A stretch of 64,000 nt of DNA, taken from NCBI RefSeq assembly GCF_000196855.1, contig NC_014319.1, positions 372,001 through 436,000 on the forward strand, in the 5' to 3' direction. The translations under genes and the position numbers were made by a program. This document shows, piece after piece, positions 19,577 to 23,515 of this stretch; the first letter of the stretch is position 1; each line of letters starts with the position of its first letter. The notes below the pieces were generated by a model, which saw nothing but the letters and a program-made list of their open reading frames with translations, was not told where the DNA came from and did not search any database. This DNA is from Leuconostoc gasicomitatum LMG 18811. Lineage in GTDB: Bacteria; Bacillota; Bacilli; Lactobacillales; Lactobacillaceae.

Positions 19577-20308
19577 TTAAAATGTTTCTGTTTCAATTTG
19601 GTCTAATTTCTCAGTCCAATCAACTTCAGGATACTTACGAGACAAGGCCGTTGCTAAAACACGCTTTGCTAAATTACCATTACGGGTAAAAATCGGGCCA
19701 TGAAAATATGATCCGTAGACATTACGGTAAATCACGCCTTCAGTTTGATCCATCCCGTTGTTACCATTACCTGAAATAACAGTCCCTAAGGCGCGTTCAT
19801 TTTTACCTAAGAAAGTACGACCTTGGTGGTTTTCAAAGCCATGATAAGTTTCATCCGTATCATTATTTTTAATCACAATATTGCCAGTAAGTCGTTTATT
19901 ATTTAACGTCGTTAATTTAGGCTCATGCATGTTAATTGTGTAATGATCCATGACGCCGATACCATCAACTCTAGTGCCATCAGCCATGACCATATAATGG
20001 CCAAGAAGTTGAAAACCACCGCAAACAGCCAATAAAGGGCCATCGTTTTCAATATAATGGCGCAGTTGGTCGGCCTTATTTTTCAAATCTTTGGCAACAA
20101 TTGTTTCTTCATAATCTTGCCCGCCACCAAACAAAGCAAAATCAAAGCTATCAGCATCAAAATCATCTCCAAGTGATACCAGATGATAATTAACAGCAAC
20201 ACCAATTTGTTTGGCATAATATGTTAATGCAATAATATTGCCGTAATCACCGTATGTATTCATCAAATTACCATAAAGGTGCGCAACAGAAATCTCGAAA
20301 TTTGCCAT
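19577..20308 (-). CDS. gatD: Lipid II isoglutaminyl synthase, glutaminase subunit
   Basis: GatD is a CobB/CobQ-like glutaminase that delivers ammonia to MurT for amidation of D-glutamate in lipid II, at the inner face of the membrane. The 243-residue protein has the catalytic Cys96 in LLAVCGGFQLLG and His203 in GSYFHGPIF, and the opening SVAHLYGNLMNTYGDYGN is typical. It overlaps murT by one base, so the pair is translationally coupled. Both active-site residues are intact. Confidence 0.93.
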   Translation of the reverse strand: MANFEISVAHLYGNLMNTYGDYGNIIALTYYAKQIGVAVNYHLVSLGDDFDADSFDFALFGGGQDYEETIVAKDLKNKADQLRHYIENDGPLLAVCGGFQLLGHYMVMADGTRVDGIGVMDHYTINMHEPKLTTLNNKRLTGNIVIKNNDTDETYHGFENHQGRTFLGKNERALGTVISGNGNNGMDQTEGVIYRNVYGSYFHGPIFTRNGNLAKRVLATALSRKYPEVDWTEKLDQIETETF

Positions 20309-21666
20309 TAAAATCCTCCTTTGATATAGCCGGCTGCGCCAAGTTGTTCACGTAACTGCAGCATAGCTGTATAAGTTGCTGCGATATACACTTTATCGGT
20401 TGGTAGTGATTTAATTGCAGTCACAATTTGAGTTAAATCTTCATAGACAGCTTGATCCGGAAAACCGGCCATTTTCAAACGGACACGCAAATCTTTATAG
20501 CGTTCACCACCAGTAGCAACTGCTTTGATGTTGGTATCATGTAGTTTTTCAAATTCTGCATCCCAAATCCAACTGGTATCGATGCCATCCGCGTAATTGG
20601 CATTTAGCAAAGCTAACAATGAAAAATCATCTTTTTCAGTGACCATCATGTCGATAACAGAATTTGTGCCAACGGGATTTTTAATCAAAACAATGATGAC
20701 GTCTTTACCATCAACATGAAGCGCTTCTTGACGACCAAATATTTGCGCATTGGATTCAAAGGCTGTTTTTATTTTTTCGGGATCGACATTAAACTCACGG
20801 CCAACTGCAAAAGCAGTCAGTGCGTTGTAAATATTGTACAACCCACCAATTTCAATGCGCAGTGGCGTGTTATCAATGCTAAAAGTTGAATATTTGGGTG
20901 TTAAGTCAGTGATACTAGTGACTTGATAGTTTAATTTTGGACGTACAAAGCTGTCTGTTGTACTGAAATACTTACCTAAATTAGCGTAAGTTATAAAATC
21001 ATAGTTTAAAACAGAATGATCTGTAGGGGATAAGATGCCGTCGGTATTGATTGGTGCAACAGTTGGGTTATAATCAGCTGGTTGTATATGATTAAAGCCA
21101 AAGTATTTGCGTTCATTGGTGAAATCACCACGTGTAAAAATTGGTGAATCACCATTAGCTAGAACAATAGCCTCGGGCGCATGCTTAATACCAGCAATAA
21201 TTTTATCGTATGTCGTATAAATTTCACCATAACGATCAAGTTGATCACGGAAAATATTGGTCAGCACAAACATTTTTGGCTTTATTGCTGCAGCAATCTT
21301 TTCAACGTTTGCCTCATCTACTTCAAGTACAGCAACTGGCTTTTGGCCATTTGGTGAGGGTTTAACTTTTGCTGTGACAAGCGTGCCTGTGATGCCTTGA
21401 ATCATGTTTGAACCAGAAGGATTAGTAATGACAGTATAACCACCTGCCTGCAAGACACGTGTGATAAGGGCAGTTGTTAGTGTTTTACCATTTGTACCAG
21501 TCACGATGATTAACTCAAAATCCTGTTGGATTTTTGTTAAAATATTGGGATCGATTGATACCGCGAGTTTACCTGGTAAGCTTGTGCCACCACGATGTAA
21601 AATGTCATGCAAAAGCCAATAAGAACTTTTTGCAGTGATGCGTGCTAGTGTGCTTTTAAGTGTCAT
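20308..21666 (-). CDS. murT: Lipid II isoglutaminyl synthase, Mur-ligase subunit, zinc ribbon cysteines lost
   Basis: MurT activates the alpha-carboxyl of D-glutamate in lipid II with ATP so GatD-derived ammonia can form isoglutamine; this is needed for efficient crosslinking. The 452-residue protein has the Mur-ligase ATP motif TGTNGKTLTT near residue 56, the central domain (NIFRDQLDRYGEI), and the C-terminal DUF1727 domain. Other MurT proteins carry an inserted ribbon with two CxxC pairs. Here the insert is kept (VLNYDFITYANLGKYF) but the pairs read SPTD at 213-216 and STTD at 235-238; the whole protein has no cysteine. Function is probably kept, but the ribbon cannot bind zinc. Confidence 0.93.
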   Translation of the reverse strand: MTLKSTLARITAKSSYWLLHDILHRGGTSLPGKLAVSIDPNILTKIQQDFELIIVTGTNGKTLTTALITRVLQAGGYTVITNPSGSNMIQGITGTLVTAKVKPSPNGQKPVAVLEVDEANVEKIAAAIKPKMFVLTNIFRDQLDRYGEIYTTYDKIIAGIKHAPEAIVLANGDSPIFTRGDFTNERKYFGFNHIQPADYNPTVAPINTDGILSPTDHSVLNYDFITYANLGKYFSTTDSFVRPKLNYQVTSITDLTPKYSTFSIDNTPLRIEIGGLYNIYNALTAFAVGREFNVDPEKIKTAFESNAQIFGRQEALHVDGKDVIIVLIKNPVGTNSVIDMMVTEKDDFSLLALLNANYADGIDTSWIWDAEFEKLHDTNIKAVATGGERYKDLRVRLKMAGFPDQAVYEDLTQIVTAIKSLPTDKVYIAATYTAMLQLREQLGAAGYIKGGF

Positions 21667-21842: not shown

Positions 21843-22703
21843 ATGGGGATGTTACCGAATAAAAAAAGAAAAAACCAGCGCTTGTGGTTAAATATAACGA
21901 TTGTTGGCGGTCTGACGGGTGTTTTATTGATAGCCAATGTCAGTAACTTATCTCAATTGATTGAACCTGTTCAAGCGATGGCAATTAATGCATTACCAAC
22001 TCAAACAACTGCAACTGGTCAAAAAGTAACTTTCACAAGAACATTCACTAAGCGATATTTAGTGGCAAATGCAACGCAAAAAAGATTAGTGGGATTTCAA
22101 ACAATTGGCTCAAAGACATATTATTTTGAACCAAAAACAGGTGAAATGGTCTATGGCTTAAAAACGATTGCCGGAAACAGTTACTATTTTGATGAAAATG
22201 GCGTGAGTAACACACAATTAGCATATAAAAAAACAGTTGCATCAGTTGATGGTAACAATAAAATTGTCGAAAAAGCGATTGCAGATGGTATGAAACTTGT
22301 TGGAAAAAGTCCTTATGTTTATGGTGGTGGTAGAACATCAAAATCTATTGCCAATAATGAATTTGATTGTTCATCTTTTATCGCTTGGTTATATCGTCAG
22401 GCAGGACAACCGTTAGTTGTCCAGTCAGCCGCATCTACAACCATATTGAATCAAATTGGAACAACAGTGGCGTGGTCTGATATGAGACGTGGTGATATAC
22501 TGGTGACCCCTGATACGTATACAGAAGAGCGACTTCATACTGCTATTTATTTAGGTAATGGTTTCATATTACATGACTCTGCACCGACTCATGGTGTCGC
22601 AATTAGTCGATTAGTTGACCTAGTAAATTCTAAAACGTCGCAAACATTGACATGGTCGGGATTATTTAAACCTGGAGCGGTGCGACAAGTTGTTGATAAT
22701 TAA
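21843..22703 (+). CDS. Secreted NlpC/P60 peptidoglycan endopeptidase with glucan/cell-wall binding repeats
   Basis: A 286-residue secreted or anchored cell-wall hydrolase. It has a hydrophobic N-terminal segment (about 16-37), then two short tandem repeats of the choline/glucan-binding type (GSKTYYFEPKTGEMVYG and GNSYYFDENG), and a C-terminal NlpC/P60 domain with Cys in FDCSSFI and His in LHTAIYLGNG, followed by ILHDS. NlpC/P60 enzymes cut between D-Glu and the third residue or within bridges. The same repeat type occurs in Leuconostoc glucansucrases, which fits the host. GAAGGAG precedes the ATG at 21843 by five bases; ATG at 21849 is an alternative. Confidence 0.88.
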   Translation: MGMLPNKKRKNQRLWLNITIVGGLTGVLLIANVSNLSQLIEPVQAMAINALPTQTTATGQKVTFTRTFTKRYLVANATQKRLVGFQTIGSKTYYFEPKTGEMVYGLKTIAGNSYYFDENGVSNTQLAYKKTVASVDGNNKIVEKAIADGMKLVGKSPYVYGGGRTSKSIANNEFDCSSFIAWLYRQAGQPLVVQSAASTTILNQIGTTVAWSDMRRGDILVTPDTYTEERLHTAIYLGNGFILHDSAPTHGVAISRLVDLVNSKTSQTLTWSGLFKPGAVRQVVDN

Positions 22704-22758: not shown

Positions 22759-22837
22759 AGTAAGAGACTGTTTTTGTTTGAACAACTTAACTGAGATGTT
22801 CAACATAAATTTTATTTAATAAGTCAGGGGGTAAGTG

Positions 22838-23515
22838 TTGATAAACGATGGGGTTATTAAGGTTATGAAATCACATCGTCAACACGTTAAAGATATGGCA
22901 CAACTATTCTTTGAATACGGCGCAATGAGTTCAGGTAAATCGATTGAAATTTTAAAAGTAGCGCACAATTACGAATCACAAGGTCGACAGGTACTTTTGA
23001 TGACGCCAATTACTGATACACGTGCAGGTATTGGGGTTGTCGCAAGTCGTATCGGGTTATCCCGTGAGGCTTTAGCAGTCAAACCAGCAGACGATTTATA
23101 TGTTTTGATTAAAAGTATGGCAGCTAATGATTTGGCCGTTGTTTTAGTGGATGAGGCACAGTTTTTAACACCAGAACAGGTAGATCAACTAGCCTATACA
23201 GTAGATAACTTACATATTCCAGTGATGGCGTTTGGCTTAAAACAAGATGCTTTCAACAATTTATTTGCTGGATCAAAACGATTGATCGAATTAGCGGATA
23301 AACTAGAAGAAATGAAAACCATTTGTTCATTTTGTGGCAAAAAAGCAACAACCCAACTGAGAATAGTCAATGGTAAACCGCAACGGCAAGGCGCACAAGT
23401 ATTCATTGGGGGTGACGAAGCTTACATTCCAACGTGCCGCCGTCATTGGTTCAATCCTGATCTAGACAAAATTGCGACAATGTTTCCATATGAAGCAACT
23501 GAACATGCCAAATAA
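22838..23515 (+). CDS. tdk: Thymidine kinase
   Basis: This is a type II (TK1-like) thymidine kinase of nucleotide salvage. The P-loop region reads YGAMSSGKSIEIL, VLVDEAQFL is the Walker B-like segment, and the lasso and zinc domain are complete: ICSFCGKKA and PTCRRHW supply the zinc ligands. That matters here because other zinc ribbons in the window have been lost. The start is uncertain: AGGGGG at 22826-22831 best fits the TTG at 22838 (six bases); GTG 22835, ATG 22865 and ATG 22895 (the last giving the usual MAQLFF start) are in frame. It is followed by prfA, a common Firmicutes order. Confidence 0.92.
   Translation: MINDGVIKVMKSHRQHVKDMAQLFFEYGAMSSGKSIEILKVAHNYESQGRQVLLMTPITDTRAGIGVVASRIGLSREALAVKPADDLYVLIKSMAANDLAVVLVDEAQFLTPEQVDQLAYTVDNLHIPVMAFGLKQDAFNNLFAGSKRLIELADKLEEMKTICSFCGKKATTQLRIVNGKPQRQGAQVFIGGDEAYIPTCRRHWFNPDLDKIATMFPYEATEHAK

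Follow-up and report, generated by a model that had tools for sequence, protein, structure and literature searches.

In crystals of MurT-GatD from Staphylococcus aureus, zinc is bound by four cysteines of MurT (PMC6113224). The S. aureus complex (6GS2, 6H5E, 7Q8E) is homologous to the enzyme considered here and also carries the ribbon as an insertion. The MurT-GatD pairs of Streptococcus pneumoniae (6FQB) and Streptococcus pyogenes (9SQ9/9SQJ) match it in fold and catalytic residues, with the domains in the same order and the same inserted ribbon, at 44-48% identity, but their MurT ribbons hold four cysteines where that of Leuconostoc holds serine and aspartate. A pneumococcal MurT with all four cysteines changed to serine (4C4S) kept 23% activity in vitro, indicating that zinc is not needed for the chemistry, but the mutant protein was unstable, breaking down in storage, and could not sustain growth (PMC6085368). 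The same report, by Morlot et al. in 2018, described the Ser/Asp replacement in MurT of Oenococcus, Weissella and Leuconostoc, so the basic replacement is already known (PMC6085368). To that report we add a single origin, a parallel change to threonine, further altered forms in one genus-level group (g29) and the cysteine-poor proteome in which the replacement is found.

The Leuconostoc locus

The window, a stretch of 64,000 nucleotides from Leuconostoc gasicomitatum LMG 18811 (NC_014319.1, positions 372,001 to 436,000), encodes on its minus strand murT (20308..21666), the Mur-ligase subunit of lipid II isoglutaminyl synthase (452 aa), and gatD (19577..20308), the glutaminase subunit (243 aa), which retains C96 and H203 (HGP). 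The two genes adjoin, the ATG of gatD and the stop of murT overlapping by one base. Both PF08245 (Mur ligase middle) and PF08353 (MurT_C, 120 bits) scored above their cut-offs on the murT product, and the NCBIfam MurT model (NF045635) ran far ahead of all others at 535 bits, the strict equivalog cut-off being 800 bits. The top PDB sequence match was S. pneumoniae MurT (6fqb, E 4e-123) and the closest named relative was Leuconostoc gelidum (97% protein identity). These matches identify the product as MurT, partner of GatD in the lipid II amidotransferase of a Leuconostoc close to L. gelidum. A profile search returned a single MurT_C match in the genome of the window. Divergent from murT, at 21843-22703, lies a gene for an NlpC/P60-type cell-wall hydrolase with a match to a glucan-binding repeat.

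Alignment to 6fqb, 9sq9 and 6gs2, together with a hairpin in the AF2 model, placed the ribbon insertion at residues 207-245 (20932..21048, minus strand; NTDGILSPTDHSVLNYDFITYANLGKYFSTTDSFVRPKL). The first former zinc knuckle, S213-P-T-D216 (21019..21030, minus), corresponds to CPxC in relatives, and the second, S235-T-T-D238 (20953..20964, minus), to CPNC; homologous PDB sequences, which align here ungapped, read CPDC/CEGC and CPKC/CLNC. The codons concerned are TCC for S213 (21028-21030), GAT for D216 (21019-21021), AGT for S235 (20962-20964) and GAC for D238 (20953-20955). The protein thus has neither of the two CxxC or CxC pairs of a Cys4 ribbon, reading S-P-T-D and S-T-T-D and containing no cysteine. 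An earlier note on this DNA had placed the loss of all four ribbon cysteines at 20953-21030, which the minus-strand reading frame reproduces exactly with the same four residues, and its description of a 452-residue protein devoid of cysteine was borne out by translation. That second property is true but unremarkable by itself, since 37 of the 50 larger open reading frames of the window are likewise free of cysteine. The note had also allowed for a sequencing error or for zinc ligands elsewhere in MurT. Fourteen other Leuconostoc genomes also read SxxD/SxxD, and the clade-wide absence of the tetrad rules out both an error and a strain-only change; ligands elsewhere are ruled out as well, the protein being without cysteine and the clade-specific alignment columns adding no new ligand set.

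Distribution and origin of the Ser/Asp ribbon

A murT match was found in every sampled genome of Lactobacillaceae. When 301 genomes of the family were searched with a DNA pattern for the four-cysteine ribbon, 239 matched, one of them (G112) by chance and away from its murT. This leaves 238 genomes of 31 genera, counted by pattern and with the position inside murT checked among the matches listed; all 238 sampled genomes of these genera carry the four-cysteine ribbon pattern. At murT the pattern occurs in none of the 63 sampled genomes of nine other genera, which they fill completely: Leuconostoc (g1), Fructobacillus (g2), Convivina (g7), g8 (L. fallax), g10 (uncultured), Weissella (g18), Periweissella (g19), g29 and g39. 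Intermediates keeping one pair and lacking the other were found neither by pattern nor by alignment in the 301-genome sample. Among sequences from the class and phylum samples there was likewise no Ser/Asp MurT elsewhere, all having the cysteine tetrad as CxxC or CxC. One ribbon cysteine is missing from each of three MurTs from outside Lactobacillaceae (L209, CCCG; L214, CCSC; L217, CCCD), and the murT match in the genome of L214 has an in-frame stop. A separate observation is a second MurT-like four-cysteine ribbon in genome G047 (C98, 15517-15594), besides the murT on C81, perhaps from a second MurT-like gene.

In a tree built from MurT, with the ribbon columns removed, and GatD, a single branch, supported by an SH-aLRT of 100, separates all 43 cysteine-less rows from the others, as expected of one change. 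Mapped across the sampled Lactobacillaceae, the cysteine loss is confined to nine genera and to one event on the tree. Judged from these sequences, a single loss of the tetrad preceded the split between Leuconostoc, Fructobacillus, Convivina, Weissella, Periweissella and Oenococcus.

The group that we take as Oenococcus is g29, probably so because MutS was absent from the six g29 genomes tested, one of them 65% complete, as mutS-mutL is from O. oeni (PMC6498615). Matches to plasmids and phages yielded no name for g29. Five MurTs of this group (L057, L058, L200, L201, L202) have changed further, to A-P-T-D/N and T-K/P-D-A/G/K, losing S213 and D238 and carrying D or N at 216. The S-x-T-D motif is thus not indispensable. 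A relative of g29 (G168) retains SDSD. If g29 is Oenococcus, the wording of 2018 is inexact for that genus.

Residue pattern, fold and function of the cysteine-less ribbon

Residues were counted in 62 distinct Ser/Asp MurTs and compared with 104 four-cysteine sequences. In the first knuckle of the Ser/Asp set, S213 and P214 are present in all 62 sequences, T215 in 56 and D216 in 61, N standing in the one exception. The second knuckle has S235 in all 62, T237 in 55 (with Ser in five more) and D238 in 58, the remaining four having Q, T or S. In the four-cysteine sequences threonine is outnumbered by another residue at both 215 and 237 (about 1% threonine at 215). The third positions have therefore also moved to threonine, and three of the four positions of each knuckle have changed alike. 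This extends the claim of the earlier note, made from one protein, that both pairs changed in the same way. Across all 67 cysteine-less sequences, a hydroxyl residue at 235 is the only universal feature of the former knuckles.

The hairpin fold of the ribbon is predicted to be retained. AF2 with a 78-sequence alignment, which includes four-cysteine homologues that may impose the ribbon fold, gave a hairpin at 221-227/230-234 with mean pLDDT of 90-96 over blocks spanning 211-240, and the model superposes on S. pyogenes MurT (9sqj) over 395 residues with a Z of 41. With 10 sequences, nine of them cysteine-less, pLDDT of the ribbon fell below 50; the fold prediction thus leans on the deeper alignment with four-cysteine relatives. 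By alignment, the pneumococcal residues that face GatD (I203, L204, I211) correspond to I211, L212 and V219 here, where Ile, Val or Leu is retained.

The MurT P-loop (GTNGKT) and the EVDEA, FRDQ[LM]DR and NANYADGIDTSWI motifs are invariant or almost so across the cysteine-less clade, and the protein of the window has the expected ligase motifs (GTNGKT, EVDEA, FRDQxDR, ADGxDTSWI). Retention of both catalytic residues in GatD, noted earlier for this locus, holds for C96 and H203 (HGP) in all 67 sequences of the clade. Whole-gene pairwise dN/dS, for pairs with unsaturated dS, is about 0.05-0.08 and points to purifying selection. Given retained catalytic residues in both subunits and this selection, MurT-GatD is probably active without zinc in its ribbon, and the view of the earlier note that the pair functions without the metal gains support from sequence conservation. 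That the pair has instead become non-functional or acquired a new function has only the disappearance of a conserved zinc site to recommend it and is highly improbable, given conserved catalytic motifs in both subunits, strong purifying selection, an intact operon and the presence of murT throughout the sampled family.

In zinc knuckles, the sulphur of the first cysteine accepts NH hydrogen bonds from the residues of the following turn. Serine or threonine at this position can accept such bonds, and an aspartate three positions further along is able to cap the turn. The reading that we consider likely is that of a metal-free ribbon, in which the four cysteines were replaced once in an ancestor, the ribbon was kept for docking of GatD and S-x-T-D turns took the place of zinc. 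The ancestor of the clade would have exchanged the four zinc-binding cysteines a single time, both knuckles arriving at S-x-T-D. The ribbon would have persisted because its outer face helps to dock GatD beside the ammonia path, a role established for S. pneumoniae MurT. The first-position serine of each knuckle would probably accept the backbone NH bonds otherwise taken by cysteine sulphur and the fourth-position aspartate would cap the turn, so that hydrogen-bonded turns may hold the GatD-facing hairpin and make the metal dispensable. This mechanism is consistent with the strict Ser/Thr at 235 and the convergence of both knuckles on S-x-T-D. The sequences themselves establish the exchange, its single origin, purifying selection and the conservation of catalytic and fold-defining residues; that Leuconostoc MurT has no zinc in its ribbon, relies on these hydrogen bonds and is normally active, we infer. 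More tentative, and in our judgement somewhat short of an even chance, is a general route for converting zinc ribbons to metal-free forms, in which each CPxC independently became S-x-T-D, Ser hydroxyl and Asp carboxylate replacing the NH-S bonds, and the result became fixed a single time, in the ancestor, and has persisted in Leuconostoc, Fructobacillus, Weissella and Periweissella.

Two further explanations concern the metal and the composition of the proteome. Two aspartates and two serines at unaltered ligand spacing, nearly invariant in 62 sequences, could form a Ser2Asp2 set in which Mg, Ca or Mn, all harder cations than zinc, takes its place. We regard this as very unlikely, since four sequences have Q, T or S for D238 and one has N for D216, no set of ligands survives in g29 (A/D,N/T/A,G,K), and convergence on T215 and T237 would be unexpected from a swap of two ligands. 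Alternatively, the tetrad may have been lost through lineage-wide depletion of cysteine, the ribbon then drifting without special replacement chemistry. Calculated from 100 kb per genome, cysteine content is 0.19% in Leuconostoc, 0.15% in Fructobacillus, 0.20% in Periweissella and 0.25% in Weissella, compared with 0.34-0.56% in five Lactobacillaceae genomes with four-cysteine MurT, and these cysteine-poor proteomes, the renewed changes in g29 and the frequency of cysteine-free L32 in the order agree with such relaxation. It is nonetheless unlikely in view of the near invariance of S213, D216 and S235, the arrival at the same S-x-T-D twice and genome G009, which has an SDSD MurT despite 0.60% cysteine. 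Loss of cysteine from L32 does not follow MurT either, and the zinc ribbons of TopA and the zinc-type CSFC/CRRH site of the thymidine kinase in the window (22835-23515) are retained; zinc sites are thus not generally avoided. A cysteine-poor composition may have helped the loss of the tetrad, but leaves the specific motif unexplained.

The window has 17 cysteines among the 17,512 residues of its 50 larger open reading frames (0.10%); other stretches of the same genome have 0.19%. Ribosomal protein L32 of this genome (L283, G000:C1:754764-754928) has no cysteine, DQTT and SPSG replacing its CxxC pairs. L32 is of the Cys4 type in Periweissella and cysteine-free in Streptococcus and several genera with four-cysteine MurT. 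With L32 not tracking MurT and the TopA and thymidine kinase sites kept, a co-ordinated genome-wide loss of zinc ribbons was rejected.

Comparison with known systems

The MurT of the window is the variant of Morlot et al. (PMC6085368), with nothing essential different, and the variant is here extended to Fructobacillus, Convivina and Periweissella. It stands as a natural counterpart of pneumococcal 4C4S, its putatively metal-free ribbon being maintained in living cells; plain exchange of Cys for Ser failed to support growth, unlike the evolved Ser/Asp ribbon. The comparison points to a structural, replaceable role for zinc in MurT and offers S-x-T-D as a testable motif for a metal-free knuckle. 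A parallel exists in the C- forms of bacterial ribosomal proteins, which resemble MurT in being lineage-wide, consistent replacements of a Cys4 ribbon with the fold kept; the C-(II) form of S4, for example, has two Glu, one Arg and one Ser in place of four Cys (PMC3087516). The ribosomal C- forms are often tied to paralogues, whereas that of MurT is a vertical replacement in one enzyme.
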